Origin: Macrophomina tecta
Lineage: Eukaryota; Ascomycota; Dothideomycetes; Botryosphaeriales; Botryosphaeriaceae
Direction of reading: 5' to 3'
Length of the DNA stretch: 64,000 nt
Assembly (NCBI GenBank): GCA_024180945.1
Contig: JAKSGN010000036.1
Coordinates: 2,108,001-2,172,000, forward strand
The position numbers were made by a program, and so were the translations under genes. The notes beneath the pieces are model-generated. The model had not been told where the DNA came from. It ran no database searches and saw only the letters and a list, made by a program, of their open reading frames with translations. Each line of letters opens with the position of its first letter. The first letter of the stretch is position 1. Below, piece by piece: positions 1 to 13,990 of this stretch.

Positions 1-222
1 AATATACTCGTTAGGTAGTACTTTAATCTTTATAGTTAACTTAAAGTTCTAATACAACCCTATTAGAGGTAATAAGCCTAACGCGTATCGCGTACTAATA
101 TATTACGTAATTACTACTATTATTCTAATTCTTTACCCTTCTCTTATTCTTTAAGGTAAACCATTTAGCTACCTAACCCTACTAGGTAATTCTAAAGCCT
201 AGTAGAAGAGGCTACCGTTATA
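1..222 (+). repeat. 5' LTR of element A, 3' part only
   Basis: The segment matches 7602-7824 almost base for base apart from C/T and G/A differences of the RIP type. It ends in CCGTTATA where the other copy ends in CTATTACA, so the original terminus was probably TTACA. The start of this LTR lies before the window. Confidence 0.85.
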
Positions 223-3200
223 CTTTAACTACTATTCTTATAAGAGAAGGTAGTTCCGAGAAAAGAAATATTTAATGATAAAGTAGTATTATCCGACACT
301 TAACGCTAACTAAGTAATATAATAAACGACGTTAATATAAATAATAATGGTTTCTTATAGCCAACTATAGCCGACCTCTTTTAGATTATTTAAGACATAT
401 AAGGCCAGATTAACGAACTACGTAGATAACTCTAGAAGTAGACTAACAAGAACACCTAGCTCTATTAATAAATAGGCGAACTTCGCAACTAAGCTATTTC
501 GATAACCCCTACCCTAGTACCCGTTTATACTTCTATATTAACAACGACTTAACCTCCTAACAAAAGCACGAAAACGGCTAAGCTAGATCTATTCTATAAT
601 AACTAAAAGAAGCTCTAGACCTTTCTCTTATAACTTAACCTATACTTCTTCTTTAACTCTAGAGACTTCCCTACCGATAATAAAAAGATAATATTCGCAG
701 CTACCTACCTCCGCGATATTATAGTATAGTAGTTTAAGCCCTACCTTAGAGACCGAATAGAGAAGAAACTAAAAGTACGTAAAAAGAATACTAAGAAAGT
801 CTTTAGTAGCTATAAGTACTTCGTAACTTAAATTAAGCAAAGCTTCGGAGATCTCGACGAGGTTAATAAGGCCCGACGAGCCGTTATAAACATTTACTAG
901 AAGACCTTAGTAGTAGACTATACTATAGAATTCTAAAAGACCGTAGCGTACCTAGATAACTAGTCTAACTACGCCCTTATAAACTACTACTACCGAGGAC
1001 TTAAGAAAAGAGTTAAAGACCAACTTATAATATAGAACGATTCTAAGACCCTAGATAAGCTTATTAAGCTAGCTATTAAATACGATAACCGCCTCTTCGA
1101 GCGCCAGTCCGAGAAGTATAAGGTAAACTATAAAGCTAATATTTCGCGCCTAGCGCGCCCTAGATATACTTAGAAAGAAGAAGATACTATAGAGCTAGAT
1201 AATATTAACCGCCAAAACAACCTACTAAAAAGAGACAACTACTATAGGAAAAAAAACAACGGCTATAAGAAAAAACAACGTAAAGAATAAATCCTAGAGC
1301 AAAAATAAAGATATAAAAAAGAACTATACGTCTACTATAATAAGACTTAGGAAAAGACACACTACTACCTTAAAAAGAATAAATAAGTCTTAGCTATAAC
1401 GTAAGAACCGAAAAGCTAAGAAGTCTCTACGGTTACTAAGTAAGAAAACCCCTTCGCCGAATTTAATAAGCAATACGAAGAAAGCTAGAGCCCTAAGTAT
1501 TAGAGGCTTAGCTAGATAGCCTACTATAATAATAACTATACTACTTACTAGAGCGACAAGGACGCTATAGGCTAGTACCCTAAAGAGCTATAATATATTA
1601 ATACGACCCTAAGAATAGAGAAAGAGCTTATTAAAGCCTTTCCTAATAATAAGGATCTAGTCGACAACGACACGGGGGAACTATATAATAGCACCCTAGA
1701 GTTAAGCACGACCGATAATAAGTAATAGTAGAATGAAGCTATACTTATAAAAATAACCAAATACCTAACCTAATACGGAGAGATACGCCGCATTACTAAT
1801 AGCCTAGAGCCTACGGTTACCTAGATTCCAGGCCCTATAATTAACCTCGGGACGCAGCAATACAAGGTATAGTAAGAAAAGATATACGCACGTATATAGT
1901 AAGACGACACCTAGAACCCCTAGAAAAAATTACTACTTGAGATAGCTAACGAACTCGCATCCTAGCTAGAGAACGAGGCACGAGGAGTATAATAACGCTA
2001 AGACCTATAGTATCTCCGCGATATAGCCTATACCCTCTATTAGTACGGTATAGCGACTAGGGACAGAAGCACCTTATAATAGATACCCTACGAAAAATAC
2101 GACATACCTACCTTCTAGTATTAGGTTCGAAACGGGTGGATCTACTAGAGGCGACTAATTAAACACAATAGATAGATATAATAGAAAGATACCCTAGTCC
2201 TAGTTAAGAAATAAGACGAATATATCTATTATAAAATAACGGAACGATCTATATTAAAAAACTAGACGGCTTCCCTAGATAGAAATCCTAGAAGGGGCCG
2301 TTAGACAGGTTCCTTAACTAGATTATACGTATAACGAACGGAATTATACCTATTAGATTAAACTTATATCGACTTTTACATATCCTAGTTATATTCTACG
2401 GGAAAAAGGTAATAGCTATAATCGATAGCGGCGTATAAGGCGTATTCGTCGACCCTAAGTTTATCGTTAAGAACTAACTACCCTAGTAAGCTAAGAATTA
2501 TTCTTATCGGCTAAGTACGGTAGACGGCTCCCTAGCAAAATACGAAAATAGCTAGATACGAATTAAGATAGAAGAAGTACCCCTTACCATTAGAAATTAC
2601 TAAGAACGGATTAACCTCGACGTAATAATAATCCCCGGACACGATATTATCCTCGGGATATTATAGCTAAAGACCTACGAGCCGTATATTAGCTAGAGAA
2701 TAAAGACTATTACGTTTCCTAACGAATACTATAGACGCCACCTCGCAACGGTAAGAGAAAGCTAATAAAGCTAAAAAAAAGCGCTAAAGCCTAAGAGCTA
2801 GAGCGAAACCTCCGAGCTAAGATAGTGGAATAATAACGTATCTATAGATATTAAGACTATTAGCTACCGAGCGCTAAAACTTATAACAAGACGAGGAGAA
2901 AAGGCCTATATAATTTACGTAAAACCTAATAAGGACGCCGAGTAGAAGACTCTTACTTATATGAAACGGGGCCTTACGGATAAGAATAAGAATAGCCTAA
3001 AGCTAGTCGAAAAAGACTACCCCTAGAGGCTTAATAGATAGTACGGCTACTTAAATAAAGTAGGTACTAGTCCCCTCGGGTATAAGAGTTATAACGATAA
3101 AGGTATTTCGGCAGCCGAGGTTAGTATAGACCTTAGCAAAATTATAAGGCCTACTACGAATAAGCTAGTACCTATACCGAAATTAGAGATAGTCCTATAG

Positions 3201-6190
3201 AAGTTCTAGAATATACTAAGAATATTCTAGAAAAGAGGTAAAGAATAACTACTAGAGTATTAGCTATAGAATTATAAAATACCCCTACTCCCGGGAATAT
3301 AACCTACTTTTAAGCCTATTTACTCCTTGTCTAAGACAGAGGCCGAAGCATTACGAAAATATATTAATAAAAACCTAGAACGAGAATATATATGACCCTT
3401 ATAGTTACTAGTAGAATATTCTATTCTATTAGTTTCTAAGAAGAATAGTAAGCTCCGCCTCTACGTTAACTATAGATAGCTAAATAATATTATAGTAAAA
3501 AACCGATACCTACTACCTCGTATTAACGAATTATAAGATAAGCTTCGCAATGCCTAGTTCTTTATAAAACTAGACCTTTAAGAAGGTTACCACCTAGTCT
3601 ATATTAAGAAAAGTAAAGAATAGAAAATAGCGTTCTAAACGTAATTCGGGTATTACGAGTATACGGTAATACTTTTTAGGCTTACTAACGCACCGGCTAC
3701 CTTCTAGAGCTTAGTTAACGATACCCTACGTCCGTATTTAGATATATTTACTTTAGCTTACCTAGACGATATCCTAATATACTCGGAGACGCTCGAGAAA
3801 CACACCGAGTACGTAAAAAAAGTTCTAAAGGCCTTAGACGAGCGAAACCTCTAAATAGCCCTAGAAAAAAGCGAGTAGTATACCTAAAAGATAGAATACC
3901 TAGGGTTTATTATTACCCTAGGATATATTAGTATAGACGACAAGAAACTAGTCGCAATTAAAGACTAGCCGATATCGTAAATCGTTAGAAAAGTATAATT
4001 CTTTCTCGAATTTACTAACTTTTACCGAAAGTTTATTATAAACTATGCTAGAATAGCGGCACCTCTAACCGACATTACTAAGAAGAAATATAGGTTTATA
4101 TAGAAAGAAAGATAACAACAAGCGTTTAACTTATTAAAGCAGATATTTATAGAAGCACCGGTTCTAGAGCTCTATAACCCGAATCTACTAATTACGATAG
4201 AAACCGACACTTTAGACTACGCTATAGAAGCCGTACTTAGTTAGCTAGATAAAGAAAATAGACTATACTCTATCGCCTACTACTTAAGAAAAATAATACC
4301 TACTAAGAAGAACTATAACGTCTATAATAAAGAACTCTTAGCTATAGTTACGGCTTTTAAAGAATAGAGATACTATCTTAAAGGCGCTAAATACTAGGTT
4401 ATAGTCTACTACGACTATAAGAACCTTTCGTACTTTACTACTACTAAGAAATTAAACCGTCGATAGATTTAATAGGCTAAAGAGCTAGCGTCTTATAATA
4501 TAAAGATTACCTATAGAAAGGGATCTAAGAACGCTCGCGTAGACGCGCTAAGTAGACGAGCCAACTATATTAAAGAAAAGCTAGGTCTATAACCTATAAT
4601 ACTTAATACGTAGGAGAACGGGTCTTTTATACCCGCTAGCCGTAGCCGCTAGATTACAGCTATTTATAGCCTAGGATAAACGTAGCTTAAGAAAGAACTA
4701 GACAACTCGCTTATCTTAATTAGACTATTCGCCCTAGCGATACGCCTTAAAGGTAACGAATAGGAGCAGAAGATCTAAGAAGCCTACGTAGATAACGTAA
4801 TAGCTTAAGAAATTAGAGAACTCGATAACGACCCCCGAGTAACTAGAAACGTAGATAGTATAATTCTATTTTTAGAATTAGTCTACGTTCCGGTTAAACT
4901 ACGGGAAGAGCTCGTAAAAGATATATATAAAGCCCTAGCACACGGTTATTAAGAAATAAATAAGACGATAGAGCGAATTATAAAAAGCTACTACTTTCTA
5001 AAGCTAAGAAGAATCGTTTAACGAGTAGTCTCGTAATACGATCTTTATATTAGAAGTAAAGCTGCGAAGTACGTATTCTACGAACTACTTTAGCCGCTAC
5101 CGGCACCGAAGCGCCCTTAGTAATTTATCTCGCTAGACTTTATTACGGACCTACCTAAGTTAGAAGAACCGCTTACTAAGATTAAATATAACTTAATCCT
5201 AGTTATTATTAATAAAATAATAAAGTACGTATATTACCTACCATATCTTAAGATGGTAAATACGGAAGAACTCGCCTATACGTTCCTTAAAATAATTCTT
5301 GGTAACTACGGGTTACTAGAAGAGCTCGTATTAGATAAAGATTAGCTATTTATATCTTAATTCTAGTAGACTTTTACTCGCTAGCTTAGAGCTAAGTATA
5401 AGCTCTTAACTATAGTACACCCTTAAACAGACGGATAGATAGAACAAACGAATTAAACGCTAGAATAGTACCTACACTACTATCTTAATTACGCGTAAGA
5501 TAATTAGGTCGAGCTACTACCGCTCGTATAGTTCGCGTATAATAGCTTAAAAGCGTTAGCTATATAAGAATCCCCGTTCTACGCTAATTACGGTTACGAG
5601 CCCACAGCTTATAAAGAGCCTATACTAAGCGAATTTCTAGTCTAAAAAGAAATCCTTAAAGTAGACTAGCTAAAGGCACTCTATAAATAACTATACCTAG
5701 ACCTTAAATTCGTAGCCCTATAAATAGGTAAATACTACAATAGACGGCACTAGGAGGCACTAAAGCTAAAAGAGGGAGACAAAGTTTACCTCCTTAGAAA
5801 AAATATTAAGATAAAACGGCCGAATAATAAACTAGACTTTAAGAAAATCGGACCGTTCGAAATTAAAGAATAGATTAGAAAGGTTAATTTCCGCCTTAGA
5901 CTACCTAATACTATACGAATATACCTTATATTCCACGTCTTACTTCTTAAACCGGCACCAGAAAACGCGACGCCATTACGCTAAACGGAAGAAATGCTAC
6001 CGAAAAATCTAAACGCCGACGAAAATATAGACTAAAATATAGAATAAGTCCTAGACAGCGGCTATATTAACGGTTAATTCCGATACCTCTTTAAATAGAA
6101 AGGAGACTAGAATAATACCTAGAAACCACCGAAACTATACGACTATTAAGAACTTATTAATAAGTTCTATCGCTAAAACCCAGATCGACT
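223..6190 (+). pseudogene. gag-pol of element A, inactivated by RIP
   Basis: Domains can be followed through many stops. A zinc knuckle at about 1324-1380 has Tyr codons where Cys is expected. An aspartic protease DSG triad is at 2424-2432. Reverse transcriptase runs about 3400-3990, with the YLDD catalytic motif intact at 3759-3770. An RNase H start (ETDTLDYAIEAVLS) is near 4198. An integrase H2C2-like region begins near 4930 and a DDE-type core spans about 5120-5480. A chromodomain at about 6022-6182 includes VLDSGYING and the FYR-NP ending. Chromodomains direct integration of such elements to heterochromatin. Nearly every domain has in-frame TAG or TAA codons, so no product is expected. 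Confidence 0.9.
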
Positions 6191-6255
6191 AATACCGCCG
6201 ACTCGTTATACACGAAGGACCCGAAATTAAAATTAATAAACGAAGACAACCGCGC

Positions 6256-6931
6256 CTAATTAACTAAACTAAAACCCTTAAAAGGCGTAGAACCCGAACT
6301 AACGCTAGAAAACCCAATAGACTAGAACAACTCTATAGCGTTATTAGCTAAGGCATCGCCGCGTAAACGCTTTAGCGATCGCTCCTCCTTAGTATTTTCG
6401 GGGTTAATAGAATTCCTAGCCTTACGGGCCGCCTCTAAACGATTTAGCTCCTTAAGGTCCTTAATAGATTATACCTTCTTATTTAATATTAGACCCCTAT
6501 AACGCTGTAATAAAACCTTTTACTTACAAGAACGTTCTAAACGAGACAAAGCAGTATAAAGTTTAGACGTTAATTTTAAAATAGTATTTAGAGCCTCTAC
6601 CTTATCCGCGGTAACCTTCGCAATAGCACGCTCTAGACGAATAACTAAGAAGAAATTAGAATAAGCTAAGCGAAAGTAATAAAAATTTATAATTACCCTC
6701 CTCCGCACTACTAGTATTATAATAGATATTACTACGATGAGCGCACTCCCCGTAACGCGAATACCTAAAAATAATATAATATACTATACTCTTACCCTTC
6801 TCTTCTAGTAAAAGACATCGTATATAAGGAACTAGCATATCGAGGTCTAAAAGCACGTATAAAGAATTAATCTTTATACCTAGAAACTTACGCTTAGCTT
6901 ATTATTTATCGCGCTTACGTTTAGGAGGCAT
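6256..6931 (-). pseudogene. Antisense spliced gene of element A, RIP-damaged
   Basis: On the strand opposite gag-pol an ATG at 6931, 105 bp inside the 3' LTR boundary, opens a frame beginning MPPKRKRDK, a basic stretch like a nuclear localisation signal. Exon 1 is 6697-6931. A 52-nt intron at 6645-6696 has GTAATT at its 5' end, TTCTAAT as a possible branch point and TTAG at its 3' end. Exon 2 continues in frame with a charged, probably helical region (LERAIAKVTADKVEAL) and a KRLR motif, to a stop at 6256-6258. That stop may itself be RIP-made. A few other stops interrupt it. It matches the gene at 12712-13447 in start, RYG-C, IY-NT, LER-CK, NP---K and LKRLR, and in intron position and phase. 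The function is unknown. Confidence 0.65.
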
Positions 6932-7035
6932 CGTGGAAAAAACTTATAGAAGAATAAAGAGAAAAGATAGTAAGAACCTAAGATATAGGTAAATAAATAA
7001 ATCTTTAGGCCGAAGATTCTTAAAGGGGGGGATAG

Positions 7036-7824
7036 TATTACGAACCCTAGAGAAATAAGGGCTTTATAGCCCCACGGGTAGAAAGCCCGCACGGGAAAAA
7101 GTACCGTAGAGGCTAAGAACCCGTAAGAATAATAAAGCCGTAACGTTAGCGCGCCCGTATAAAAAAAACAGCCTCGAGGAAGGACGGCGCGTATAAACCT
7201 AGATAAGATAGTAGCGGAAGCCCGTATAAGAACGACGCCCATATGATATAGTAAGACTACGGAAATACCGACTAGGTCGAACTCCCGCAGGAAAAAAATA
7301 TCTCTAAAGAAAGAATTATAAATCCTAAAAACTAACTTTAAGCTAAGAGAAACGAATGAAAGAAAGTTAAATAACTTATATAATCTAAGAAATAATAGTC
7401 TAACAGTAGAATACTCTCTTAACTAATATAAAAGTCGGATTTTAGGAAATAGGCTTTAGCGCCTATATTACGTAAGGTCTATATAACCTACTTATAGATT
7501 AAAAGCCTTAGCATTAATCTAACTCTTAGATTAATCTAATATTACGACTAATCTAATAGTTATCCTAATTTCTAGATTATTATAGCTTTTCTATAGTATA
7601 TAGAATATACTTGTTAGGTAGTACTTTAACCTTTATAGTTAACTTAAAGTTCTAATATAACCCTATTAGAGGTAATAAGCCTAACGCGCATCGCGCACCG
7701 ATATATTACGTAATTACTACTATCGTTTTAATTCTTTACCCTTCTCTTATTCTTTAAGGTAAACCCTTTAGCTACCTAACCCTACTAGGCGATTTTAAAG
7801 CCTAGTAGAAGAGGCCGCTATTAC
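7036..7824 (+). repeat. 3' LTR of element A
   Basis: The LTR begins with TATTACGAACC (TG read as TA after RIP) directly after the purine run AAAGGGGGGGATAG. It ends CTATTACA. Its last 220 bases duplicate the start of the window. Length is about 789 bp. The left boundary is inferred from the purine tract and from the same arrangement in element B. Confidence 0.8.
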
Positions 7825-10800
7825 ATATAGTAACTAGAAATAAAGAAGTTATTAAAGCCGACGATATTATTAATAGCTTCCCCTTAGACGAGGAACTTAT
7901 AAATAGCGAGACTGAAGAACTATACGACTTAATAAATAGCGAAGTAGAAGCTATACTAGATTCTATAGCTCTTTTAAAACTTAAGCGCCTTATAGCTAAG
8001 TATAGAATTAGCGTAGAAATAATAAACGAGAACGATTAACTCGCCTAGATAATCTAGATTTTCTACGAGAGAGGATTAGCCCTTATAGTACTATAGATAT
8101 AGCGCTAAGGAACTCTCTAGAAAACCTAAATTAAGTAAGATAGAAAGAAGTATGAACTTATTATTATAAAGAAAACCGTACTTATAACGCTCTATTATTA
8201 AGAAATAACTACTTAATAGTAAGTAGACTATAACTCTCTTTAAGAGTTAGTAAGGATTCTTTATTAGTATAATACGATAACTATCTAGAACCGTACGCTT
8301 TAGTAGATACTAGACGAGAAACTTAATATACTAACCTTCTAATACTAGGTGCGAAAGAATATAGTCTACTAACGAAAATAGTTACGTACTAATAAATAGA
8401 CTAGCTAGAAGTAAGTATACCTTTAAGTTAACGAATAGAAAGACTATATATATAGTAAAGTCTACGGCTATTTAAAGCTAAAAAACTAGACGGCCCTATA
8501 GTATTAGAATCGATCTAGGAACTATAGTCTAGGTCCCTTTATATAGTATTATATATATTGGAAACAGAAACTCTTACTAGAAAGAAACTTTAGAAATAAT
8601 TTAAAATTACCGGAGTTCTACGAGAACGTATAATCTTAATACTAGTCGATAGCGGATTAAGCGAAGACTTTATCTATAATAAACTAGTATAAGAATTAAA
8701 TATTTCTTATTAAAAGAAGAAAGAACCCTACTCTCTTAGTAGATTTAATAAAAGAAACGCTAACTATAGAGAAGAATAGATACGTATTAAAATAGAAGAA
8801 GTCTTACTAGAAATTAATAAATATCCTAATTAGATTACTCTTAATATCTAGAGAATTTCGAAATACGACGTTATTCTTAAAATACCTTAGCTTAGGACTC
8901 GCAACCCCCTTATTAACTAGGCGAGCGATATACTCTTCCTACGATAGAATATCTAGAATATTATCGAAAACCTAGAAAGTAGTTATAAGAATATTAAATA
9001 GAAACTACTAGATATCTTCTAAGGATATATTTTTAGTATAAAACGAGAAGTAGCTAGTATAAGGCCTAAACGTAGTAACTATATAGGCAACTTCGATAAT
9101 AGTATAAGTTAGAACTAGAACTACGACGTAGAAGGTAAAGCCTTTTTAGTAAAATATAATTCTATTATAGGAATAAGCCCTACTAAGCGAAACGATACCC
9201 TCAAATTATTAGAAGAAACGTAAGACTTAAATAATAGCGTAAGGCCTAGTAACGGTAGTATTAACGGTAACCTTAAGAAAGGCCTAAGATAGGACTAGGA
9301 CTATAGCGTACGGAACACCGCCTTTTTAGTAAAATATAGCGCCTTAAGCGGAGTAAGCCCTACCGAGTTAAGTATTCTCGAAAATTAGATATAATACTTA
9401 TTATAAAGAACTACGCGGAGAAAGTATAAGGCTAAAAGTAAGGCTTCGCGAAAGTAATTAGTAGCTATAAAATCTCCCGTAAACGTCTAGATAATCTTAA
9501 GAGAGGTATTTAGGCGTATATAATACTAAGAATAATAGGTCTGCCTTATATATATTAAACCCTTACCGGCGGTATAATAGAGAGTATTAGCTAGGGCCTA
9601 ATAAGAAAGACTAAAAAATAAAGACTACCTAACTCCTATTAAAGAAGATAATCCTACGAGAATTAAGAGAGAATAATATAGTAGTTTAGAGATATAGTAG
9701 TAACTATAAGAAATACCTCTAATACCGAAAATAGAAACGGTACCTAACGAGTATTAGAACTTAGTTATCGTTTACTAAGAAAGAGAAAAGGGAGACTTAC
9801 TAAAGTACTAACTATAAAACTATAAGATTTCGCTTAAGCTAGGAATAAAACCGGCTTATAAGCCTATCTACTTCTTATTAAAGAAGAAAATAGAGGCTTT
9901 AAAGAAATATATTAAGAAGAACCTCGAACGAGAATATATTTGGCTATTAATATTATTAGCCGGATATCTAATCCTCTTCGTTTCTAAGAAGAATAGTAAG
10001 TTACGCCTCTATATCGACTATCGATAGCTTAATAATATTACGATTAAGAACTAATACCCGCTTCTATATATTAACGAGCTCTAGGATAAGTTAGAGAATA
10101 TAAAGTACTTTACGAAGCTAGACTTACGGGATAGATACTACTTAGTTAAAATTAAAGAAGGGAAAGAATAGAAGATAGCCTTTAAAACGAGGCTAGGACT
10201 CTACGAGTATACGATAATACTATTTAGACTTACTAACGCGCTAGTAATATTCTAGTCGCTCGTTAACGATATACTACGCGAATACTTAGATATCTTCTAC
10301 CTAGCTTACCTCGACGATATTCTTATCTTCTTAGAAACACTCGAAAAATATAAGAAGTATATTAAAAAAGTTCTAGAAATCCTCTAAGCTAAGAATCTAA
10401 CCATCGCGCCCGATAAGTATAAATAGCACGTTTAGAGAATAGAATTCTTAGGTTTTATTATTACTCCTAGATATATCGGTATAGACGACTTAAAACTAGA
10501 TTCTATTAGAGAATAGCTAGTACTAAAGATAATTAAGAAAGTATAATTCTTTCTTAGATTCGTAAACTTCTATAGAAAGTTTATCTAGAACTATTTAAAG
10601 ATTACGAAACCTTTAACGCGACTTACTTAGAAGAAGTATAGTTTCTAATAGAGAGACGATTAGTAGCAAGCCTTTAATTCGCTAAAATAAATATTTTATA
10701 AAGTACCTATCTTAGGGATATACGATTCCGATAAACTAATCGAAGTAGAAACTAATACGTTAGGATTCGCTCTAGAAGTATATTTTAGCTAGCCTAATAA

Positions 10801-12660
10801 TAAAGGTAGATAGTATCTAATCGCGTTCTACTTAAGAAAGTTTACCCTAGTAAAGCTTAACTATAATACTTATAATAAGAAACTCTTAGCTATCGTCTTA
10901 GTATTTAAGTACTAGAGATACTACCTAGAAGAAGTAGACTAATAAATAATAGTATATTATAACTATTAGAATCTTACGTGCTTTACTACGACTAAGAAGC
11001 TAAACTAACGATAGGTTCGCTAGTTATAAGAATTAGTATTCTATAATTTTAAGATTACGTATAGAAAAGATATAGATAACGCCGCTACTAACGCGCTTAA
11101 TAGAAGGATAGACTATATAAAAAAAAAAATCGAGCCGCAATCTATAGTATTATAGTAGATAAGTAATAGATCGCTTATTCTTACTAGATAGTCTTTTCTA
11201 ATGCTTCGCATCGAGTTAAACCCGTGGTATTAGAAGATTTAAGAAGTATATACTTAGAACTTCTTCGCGTAGAAACTTTTAGCGCTTAAGAACGACCCGC
11301 GTATTACTTAAGATAGAAAAGAAACGCTTCTCTTTAAAGAATTAATCTATATTCTAATAAGACTACGAGAAGTACTCGTTAAGGATATATACGTAGTACC
11401 CACGCATAGATATTAGAGTATTAATAAAACGACCGAGAGGATTATATAAAACTTCTACTTCCTAGGATTACGAAAGATAGTCTAGCGTATAGTTTCGTAA
11501 TACAACCTTTATATCTAAAGTAAAGCCGTAATATACGCTCCATACGAACAACTATAACCCCTAGAAGTACTAGAACGACTATAGTAATAGGTTACGCTAG
11601 ACTTTATTATAAAGCTACTAGAGTCTAGAGATCCACTTATAAAAGTTAAATACGACTCGATTCTAGTCTTTATCGATAGACTTATAAAGTACGTATACTT
11701 TTTACCCTACCTAGAAGTATTAAATATAGAATAGCTAGCCTATACGTTTCTTCGATATATCTTCGCGGATTACGAAATGCCGAAAGTATTAGTTTTAAAT
11801 AAAAATAAGCTAATAAGATCTAAATTTTAGTAAACGCTTATACGCTAGCTTAGAGTAAAGAATAAACTCTCTATAATAGTATATGCGTAAACCGACGGCT
11901 AGATAAAATAAATAAACCGAACTCTCGAATAATATCTCCGCTATTATATTAACTACCTATAGAATAACTAGGCTATATAGCTATCTATAGTATAATTTCG
12001 CCTATAACAGCGCTAAATAAGAGTTAACCAACGTATTACCGTTCTTTACTAACTACGGGTTTAAACTAGATGCGTATAGAAAAACTATTCTAAGTAGAAA
12101 ATTAGCCTAAAAAAGCGTCCTTAAGGCCGAGTAGCTAAGAGAATTATATAAAGCTATTAGTCTTAACCTCGAATATATACGAATTATAATATCTAAATAC
12201 TATAATAGACGGCACCAGGCGGCACTAAACCTTAAAAAGAGAAATAAAGTATACCTCCTTATAAAAAATATTAAATCGAAACGACTAAGCGATAAATTAG
12301 ATTTTAAGAAAATTAGTCTATTCGAAATTATAAAAAAACTTGGAGAAGTTACGTATTAACTTAAATTACCTAATACATGGATAAATTCTATCTTTTACGT
12401 AGTATTACTCGAGCTAGCACTAGAAAACGCCACCATCCTAGAAACTTAGAAAGAAATTATACTAGAAAACCCTAACGCCGAAGAAGACTAGTACCTAGTC
12501 GAGAAGATTCTAGACTATAAACGGTTTAGTCGTTAGCTTAAATATCTCGTTAAATAGAAAGGTTACGGGAACGAAGATAACTAGTAGATACTAAAGAACG
12601 ATATATACCTAGACCTTATTACAGAATTCTATCGCTAGAACCCTAACCTCTCGCGGAAAT
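7825..12660 (+). pseudogene. gag-pol of element B, inactivated by RIP
   Basis: The frame is broken by many TAG and TAA codons, but it can be followed. The protease reads LVDSGLSEDFIYN near 8645. Reverse transcriptase includes FVSKKNSKLRLYIDYR near 9979 and AYLDDILIF near 10303. RNase H and integrase blocks follow. A chromodomain at about 12497-12660 includes VEKILDYKRFSR and ends EFYR-NP. The N-terminal gag portion is either cut by element A or unrecognisable. Stop codons fall where Gln or Trp is normal, as expected of C-to-T RIP changes. No product is expected. Confidence 0.88.
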
Positions 12661-12711
12661 AAGGCCGTCCTCGAGCGAGAATAACGGAAGACCCTCGAGA
12701 GCCGTAATATC

Positions 12712-13447
12712 CTATACTAGGAACAGTAACAAACGAGCAGAATTTACCGACCTAGAAGAACGCGAAGACCTCGCGCTAGTAGGCTTACTAGCAAACTCGG
12801 CTAGTATAGCCTCCTACGGCGTAGTAAACCCCACCGTCGCGTAACGTAGCCGTTTTAACGCGGACGGACCCTTAGAATCTTTAGGGTTAGAATCGTCCTT
12901 CTTATTCGCTGCTAACGCTACTAGAAGCTCCTCCACCTTACAACGATTATACTCGCTTAGCGTATCTAGACTACCCGACTTAGAAAAAAGAGCCTTATAA
13001 CTACGCTTCTCTAATAGTCGCTAATTCTTACATAACCGCTCTAGCTAGGTAGCGGTAGTACCTAACTCTTTCTACTAATAGCTTAACGCCTCTTATAAAT
13101 AATTTAGCTTAGCTAGGGAAGCAAGAAACTTCTCGTACGCCTCGGCCTCTTTAGTTTTTAACTTTTCTTACTCCCGCCGAAGACTTAAGGCTAGCGACAA
13201 TTAGCAAAAATCTAACTAATAAAATAAAAAGAAACGTACCCCCGGAGAGCGATATCTTCTTTGTATTATATATCGTTGCACTCTTCGCAATACAAGCCCC
13301 GTAACGATTATAGTTCGGAGTAACCTTATAAACCGTACCGTTCAACTTATAATCGAAATAAGAACGCGATAAAGGTAAGGAAACCAACTCTACTAAGGCT
13401 ACTAAACGATAGCGCTTCTTAGTTATATCCCGCTTCCGTTTAGACAT
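12712..13447 (-). pseudogene. Antisense spliced gene of element B, RIP-damaged
   Basis: On the strand opposite gag-pol an ATG at 13447, 99 bp inside the LTR boundary, opens MSKRKRDITKKRYR, rich in basic residues. Exon 1 is 13240-13447 and includes YNRYGACIAKSATIYNT. A 49-nt intron at 13191-13239 has donor GTACGT, branch-like GCTAAT and acceptor CTAG, all good fungal signals. Exon 2 continues in frame with a predicted helical region (KEAEAYEKFLASLAKLNYL), LERLCKN, and SNPKDSK followed by ALKRLR. It reaches a TAG at 12712, about 50 bp past the convergent end of pol. Internal stops look RIP-made. The same gene with the same intron phase (1) is in element A. Function is unknown; a nuclear role is only a guess from the basic N-terminus. 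Confidence 0.68.
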
Positions 13448-13545
13448 GGCGGACTTACGGAAAGAAAGCAATCCCAGAAGAAAATATAGGAAAATAGGCA
13501 ACACGGATAAATCTTCGGGCCGAAGATCCTTAAGGGGGGGAATAG

Positions 13546-13990
13546 TGTTACGGCGCAGCCTATATAGGGTAATAAAGGTAGAAATAGCCCCGCCGAAGGC
13601 GAGTAGAACCGAAGAGATATAGGTTAGGGATTACGTAACTCCCGCGATTAGTTAGACCCACTCGCCTAGAAATTAAGTAGGTTAACCCAACCGCTTAGTA
13701 GGACGGTCGCGATTAGTTACTAAGCGCAACACCTTTACTAAGTATATAGATTATATGCATTTCCTACTAGTATATAAACTATACTCTTTAGATAGCTTTA
13801 ACCTCCGTGGTTAACTTTAATAATAATCCGTATATTGTTAGTAACACGGCCTTCGCACGCAGTACTTAGTCTTATTACGTATTCGACTTGCTCTCACCCT
13901 CTTCTTATACCCACTTAAGGAAAACCCCCTCGATAGGTTTTCTTCCTCTTTGGTGTTCGGATCCTTAGAGGCAGAGGCCCGCTCGTTATA
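13546..13990 (+). repeat. 3' LTR of element B
   Basis: It begins TGTTACGGCGCAGCCT after the purine run AAGGGGGGGAATAG and ends CGCTCGTTATA, about 445 bp. Its start and the block from about 13770 to 13990 are shared with the solo LTR at 45682-46111, including CTTAGAGGCAGAGGC near the end. Confidence 0.85.

Follow-up and report, generated by a model that had tools for sequence, protein, structure and literature searches.

A spliced antisense gene in chromodomain Ty3/gypsy elements of Macrophomina tecta, under purifying selection and related to Botrytis brtn

Two adjacent Ty3/gypsy elements in a 64,000-nucleotide (nt) stretch of the genome of the fungus Macrophomina tecta (assembly GCA_024180945.1, contig JAKSGN010000036.1, positions 2,108,001 to 2,172,000 of the forward strand; this whole stretch is called the window below) carry, antisense to gag-pol and beside the 3' long terminal repeat (LTR), a spliced gene whose protein is under purifying selection. 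An earlier note, made from the letters of the window, had proposed such a gene in two element families, kept by selection, and the proposal is borne out by unrepaired open copies, by the ratio of non-synonymous to synonymous substitution rates (dN/dS) and by an antisense similarity that exceeds the sense similarity in every pair of families compared. Sequence comparison shows the gene to be homologous to brtn, the antisense gene of Boty-like elements in Botrytis. We consider it reasonably probable that the product is a nuclear, dimeric, regulator-like accessory protein, decayed in the window by repeat-induced point mutation (RIP), that would resemble the viral protein HBZ in its way of working; of this mode of action, all that goes beyond an open gene under selection with a conserved intron is inferred.

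The antisense gene in the window and its open relatives

The gene of element 1 (family F1) extends over 6154..6931 and that of element 2 (family F2) over 12619..13447, both on the minus strand. The start codons, at 6931 and 13447, lie where they had been placed, about 100 nt inside the border of the 3' LTR (LTRs from ~7033 and ~13545), but the ends given for the two genes, 6256 and 12712, are internal stops of decayed copies. Open relatives (L087-L091 for element 1, L017 and L056-L058 for element 2) read on past these points and end at a position that matches a TAA also present at 6154 and 12619, so that the C-terminus of the antisense protein overlaps the end of pol. When read to this end, both window copies prove dead, the gene of element 1 having 7 stops in frame and that of element 2 having 9.

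Translation of the spliced sequences agrees with GT-AG introns of 52 and 49 nt, both in phase 1, and both frames break once the intron is left unspliced. In element 1, exon 1 (6697..6931, minus strand, or to 6691 if an inner donor is used) encodes a basic N-terminus and a six-cysteine region, and exon 2 (6154..6644, minus strand) a coiled coil, a basic KRLR stretch and a C-terminal tail overlapping the pol end. In element 2, exon 1 (13240..13447, minus strand) encodes a KRKRD N-terminus and a six-cysteine region, spaced CX2CX6CX8CX2CX7C in open copies; the intron (13191..13239, minus strand, 49 nt, phase 1) has a TGCTAAT-type branch site in open F2 copies, and exon 2 (12619..13190, minus strand) encodes a coiled coil, a KRxR stretch and the tail. 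For element 1 the presence and phase 1 of the intron stand, but its extent of 52 nt (6645..6696, minus strand) is probably wrong. Open F1 copies read GTGACT-GTGAGT at the donor, where the inner hexamer of the window copy is ATAAAT, and the intron probably runs from 6645 to 6690, because the inner GTGAGT makes a better donor and its use yields DF.RL.RA residues common to F5 and F6. The motifs RYG-C, IY-NT, LER-CK, NP---K and LKRLR are common to both antisense products, as the note had it, but their tyrosines are cysteines in open copies (RYGAC is RCGAC, and IYNT is MCDA). By eye, tyrosine stands in place of four of the six cluster cysteines in element 1 and of five of the six in element 2.

We searched the 54.1 Mb assembly with both window gene regions, taking the best 40 of 221 candidates for element 1 and the best 40 of 78 for element 2; the copies compared comprise 39 further F1-type and 24 further F2-type sequences. 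The exon lengths of 235 and 389 nt are kept in 38 of the 39 F1-type copies, all of which have stops (3-18 each), and four of the 24 F2-type copies are stop-free. Intact antisense frames do exist: naturally open copies with the gene and its phase-1 intron occur in six families. There are at least five in F1 with an open exon 2 (two modelled with the intron), at least three in F2a and at least one in F2b, at least 13 in F3 by search (two read, one modelled), at least two read in F4 (one modelled), at least three in F5 and at least five in F6 by search (two modelled). Seven single-intron models on natural DNA (L087 for F1, L057 for F2a, L017 for F2b, L099 for F3, L101 for F4, L108 for F5 and L113 for F6) give open proteins of 229-260 residues, with basic stretches close to both ends and a long coiled coil. 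All seven introns are in phase 1 and measure 46-55 nt (49 or 55 nt in L087); a branch site like TGCTAAT or CTGAC can be seen by eye in six of them, and the donor of the F5 intron is GTTAGT. The F2a copies are 100% identical across the stretch searched, and sets of matches of equal or near-equal score were obtained for F3 (at least 13), F1 and F6 (at least five each) and F5 (at least three), which suggests recent activity of these element families.

The antisense protein is under purifying selection. By dN/dS between copies, the measure on which the note had proposed to judge the gene, the antisense frame stays far under 1, and in exon 2 the sense frame comes close to 1. For F2a against F2b, the antisense values are 0.035 in exon 1 (19 synonymous, 3 non-synonymous) and 0.281 in exon 2 (51 synonymous, 53 non-synonymous), while the sense pol frame gives 0.132 and 0.937, respectively; the low sense value in exon 1 may stem from shared wobble positions. 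In five other codon-aligned pairs, the antisense dN/dS is 0.13-0.33 in exon 1 (one pair being saturated and giving no value) and 0.40-0.74 in exon 2. Neither does the similarity between families disappear when sense coding is discounted, as the note had allowed that it might. Over the 5' part, where the DNA has diverged, the antisense product outscores the sense product in 21 of 21 between-family pairs. In the 12 of these pairs that join the two clades (F1/F5/F6 and F2/F3/F4), the antisense E-values lie between 3e-7 and 9e-23, those of the sense products are no better than 5e-4 except in F1-F2b (6e-7), and those of the DNA no better than 1e-7.

Kinship with Botrytis BRTN and resemblance to zinc-cluster proteins

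The antisense gene brtn was reportedly described by Zhao et al. in 2011 from Boty-like elements of Botrytis cinerea. Passages of three papers cite this work on the Ty3/gypsy elements (PMC8365987, PMC7264820, PMC4227169). Residues 1-130 of the F4 protein match P0017 (E 1.3e-7), P0017 in turn matches P0054, annotated as 'Putative BRTN' (E 1.3e-24), and a profile-to-profile comparison gives 99.7% and an E-value of 1.6e-26; taken together, these comparisons show homology with brtn. The note had regarded a spliced antisense gene as no standard part of Ty3/gypsy elements, and on this point its novelty in fungi falls, since brtn had been described before and the class has been known since 2011. According to the passages on Boty, brtn lies antisense between pol and the 3' LTR, as here. 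In the homologous proteins the parts follow one another alike, first the cysteine cluster, then the coiled coil, then the tail. A chromodomain Ty3/gypsy host, a mark of the brtn family, is seen here as well: the pol of L017 (F2b) has a chromodomain (E 5e-12) and an integrase H2C2 domain in Pfam, and a chromodomain-like stretch can be seen by eye in F1, F3 and F4. The families differ in that here an intron separates the two regions in seven of seven models, whereas in Leotiomycete-type relatives, predicted on short contigs, the coding sequence runs straight through, which suggests that they have no intron, and in that the cluster of F1, F5 and F6 has a wider first long gap. Kinship between families of the Botryosphaeriales and the Leotiomycetes suggests that this element lineage has long carried the gene and that it is no stray capture.

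The F4 protein is a 97% match to P0016 of Macrophomina phaseolina MS6. P0004, also from Macrophomina phaseolina, reads by eye almost as L103. In P0008 (Botryosphaeria dothidea SLS57_006002) an NAD-binding-like N-terminus is joined to a BRTN-like C-terminus, which would mean either that a host gene has been hit by an insertion or that the gene model is wrong, and the annotated form of P0015 (Aplosporella prunicola) has the coiled coil and tail without the cysteine cluster, through either a gene-model error or shortening. A scan of IMG/VR gave 82 stretches with the pattern, none of which was confirmed. In the open-licence literature we found no statement of BRTN as a zinc-cluster protein, of a brtn intron or of an open pol frame; the automatic UniRef name of two Sclerotinia relatives is Zn(2)-C6 fungal-type.

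Zn2Cys6 clusters (PF00172) have the general form CX2CX6CX5-12CX2CX6-8C. One example of such spacing is given in a passage of PMC4245848. F2a, F2b, F3 and F4 conform to it, as do 58 of 85 relatives in full, but in F1, F5 and F6 the first long gap is 11, 15 and 11 residues, respectively. Zn_clus is the commonest Pfam family among the relatives (38 of 77 with E-values up to 1, the best being 0.001), yet the antisense proteins remain under the curated Pfam cut-off (P0054 scores 13.7 bits against 21), and Zn_clus had no match among five window-family proteins. For these window-type proteins the Pfam scans returned nothing meaningful and no bZIP family, a Macoilin match (3.5e-4) in one of the five being taken as coiled coil; a profile search of PDB from the window families yielded only weak matches, for the most part to coiled coils (best E-value 0.046). 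In a further profile search of PDB the top match is GAL4 (1d66), though weak (E 0.18). The AlphaFold 2 (AF2) model of P0054 has a mean predicted local distance difference test score (pLDDT) of 86.5, and in structural comparison nine of eleven rows are chains that we assign to Zn2Cys6 proteins, such as 1cld with a root-mean-square deviation of 1.8 across 33 of 33 residues. With Foldseek alone there were two rows, LEU3 (E 4.2) and VIPP1 (E 8.1), and VIA on the model of P0010 gave two channel chains and no Zn2Cys6 chain.

In sequence and, weakly, in the predicted model, BRTN resembles a GAL4-type Zn2Cys6 cluster followed by a coiled coil. With the fungal transcription factors of this type it shares the cysteine spacing in F2, F3, F4 and 58 of the 85 relatives, the coiled coil that follows and weak fold matches; it differs from them in the sub-threshold Pfam scores, in the GAL4 contact lysines, which are mostly missing among the 85 relatives, in the spacing of F1, F5 and F6, and in being encoded by a retrotransposon. 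The note had seen in the basic N-terminus a hint of nuclear entry, an idea that can be sharpened to a putative zinc-cluster-like and coiled-coil architecture.

The forward pol frame, a conserved palindrome and the proposed function

In all of F1, F2a, F2b, F3, F4, F5 and F6, the sense pol frame has no stop over the entire antisense gene, and, in the six models whose locus is long enough, it runs 128-518 nt into the LTR before ending. We obtained the number of stops to be expected by synonymous shuffling of the antisense codons. The shuffles have on average 4.7 stops for F1, 2.2 for F2a, 3.3 for F2b, 2.4 for F3, 2.8 for F4, 2.9 for F5 and 4.1 for F6, and the probabilities of finding none are 0.0006, 0.06, 0.014, 0.045, 0.036, 0.013 and 0.004, in the same order. 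Summed over the seven models, which come from related families and are not independent, 22.5 stops are expected in the pol frame and none is seen, whereas the two remaining sense frames have 97 against 98.7 expected. One stop interrupts the best sense frame of an eighth model, L105, so that the pol frame is stop-free in seven of eight. Pfam gave no match for the sense extension of L017, and we infer that the pol frame is selected for openness and not for sequence. It would probably be kept open so that ribosomes on the gag-pol mRNA reach the LTR and no long 3' untranslated region is left that might set off decay. A forward frame held open across a backward gene would be a rare instance in which constraint can be measured on the two strands of the same DNA.

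Between the start codon and the polypurine tract, a block GATCTTCGGCCCGAAGATT is present in eight of eight natural upstream regions compared; in the window, element 2 retains it and element 1 has lost it. The CGG-N-CCG palindrome, likewise seen in all eight natural copies, is in element 2 a perfect one of 17 nt with one central base, ATCTTCGGGCCGAAGAT (13511..13527), next to the polypurine tract (13532..13542, plus strand); the corresponding palindrome of element 1 (7001..7017) is decayed, beside a tract at 7022..7032 (plus strand). The sequence ATCTTCGGNCCGAAGAT was found at 165 places in the genome and its backward control at none. G tracts adjoin 146 match rows, in which places with several G-run ends are counted repeatedly, and among 50 of the 165 places, judged by eye, 42 have a gene match at a distance of up to 1 kb and eight do not. 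In F4 the sense reading across the palindrome differs while the DNA is unchanged. Zn2Cys6 proteins typically bind pairs of CGG as coiled-coil dimers, according to passages of PMC5559640 and PMC4245848, but the palindrome may equally be part of the priming signal.

Under the regulator-like reading that we favour, transcription of the antisense gene would begin within or close to the 3' LTR and run backwards, giving a short spliced mRNA. The sense genomic RNA, which is the one copied during replication, would carry the intron reversed, and the intron would therefore survive retrotransposition; its presence in all seven models fits this. The protein would dimerise through its coiled coil, enter the nucleus and act on the chromatin or DNA of the element, probably tuning transcription from the LTRs. 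Passages of PMC3185765 describe HBZ of human T-cell leukaemia virus type 1 (HTLV-1) as a spliced gene, read against gag-pol from a start in the 3' LTR, for a small nuclear dimerising regulator that damps LTR activity. Orientation, splicing and small size are shared, the promoter and function on our side being proposed, but HBZ has a bZIP domain in place of the zinc-cluster-like one, and the two are likened by way of working, not by sequence. In plants, the passage of PMC7264820 names the antisense open reading frames of Grande (gene23), RIRE2, Retand and PvRetro13, in the same place and orientation, describes their function as not known and the Grande product as nuclear, and names no zinc cluster; our comparison with them is by description alone. 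That passage describes antisense accessory genes of LTR retrotransposons from plants and from Boty, with no function assigned to them. With a domain reading, a putative site on the DNA and naturally open copies within a single genome, the question can now be put directly to the test.

A more specific version is a tentative proposal that we think unlikely to hold in full. In it, fungal chromoviruses would carry an ancient, spliced antisense gene for a regulator with a GAL4-like zinc cluster, the counterpart of HBZ in fungi. The regulator would bind the CGG-N-CCG palindrome next to the polypurine tract and the border of the 3' LTR and control its own backward promoter as well as the element, and selection against stops would keep the pol frame readable in the same DNA, a case of double-strand coding inside a retrotransposon. 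Similarly unlikely, at about the same level, is that the protein is a structural helper of the particle or integration complex, serving nuclear import, chromatin tethering or as a chaperone, with a zinc cluster that binds protein or nucleic acid with no choice of sequence. Basic stretches near both ends, the long coiled coil, the shortage of GAL4 contact lysines and the nuclear Grande product reported in PMC7264820 would suit such a helper, but an oppositely transcribed unit would be needless for it, and the preserved cysteine pairs and GAL4-like layout exceed the needs of a basic tail. That the protein shields the element from host silencing or from RIP, as near-identical open copies in several families despite heavy RIP could suggest, is improbable, since 59 of the 63 further copies compared have stops although they carry the gene all the same, and neither the Pfam scans nor the PDB profile search gave similarity to a silencing factor. 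We strongly disfavour the idea that the antisense RNA itself matters, as double-stranded RNA limiting the element, with the frame secondary; such transcripts may feed small interfering RNAs, as argued in a passage of PMC7264820, but selection acts on protein and frame, and protein homology spans fungal classes. Least credible of all is an artefact, in which the frame is forced by sense coding or arises by chance in RIPed, A+T-rich DNA: the open sense frame means that dual coding has to be weighed, but exon 2 is near neutral in sense against 0.281 in antisense, the sense extension of L017 lacks a Pfam domain and homologs occur in other fungi, so that shared sense coding is ruled out as the source of similarity by the 21 pairs favouring antisense, and chance or RIP by the open copies and dN/dS.

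The two elements and their surroundings

Comparison of the LTRs explains why the two elements are adjacent, element 1 being nested inside element 2. The LTRs of element 1, at about -575..225 and 7033..7831 (plus strand, borders approximate), are 88% identical, the 5' copy beginning about 575 nt ahead of the window. The 5' LTR of element 2 begins about 8.8 kb ahead of the window and is split by another insertion, a third LTR element with 216-nt LTRs, and its 3' LTR lies at about 13545..13990 (plus strand, borders approximate). An inverted stretch found in window positions 1-13990 and L066 (10 kb upstream) is a match to the entire LTR of element 1. Finally, the 5' half of element 2 within the window contains a 44-nt direct repeat (9140-9183 and 9320-9363), whose copies are 80% identical at a spacing of 180 nt.

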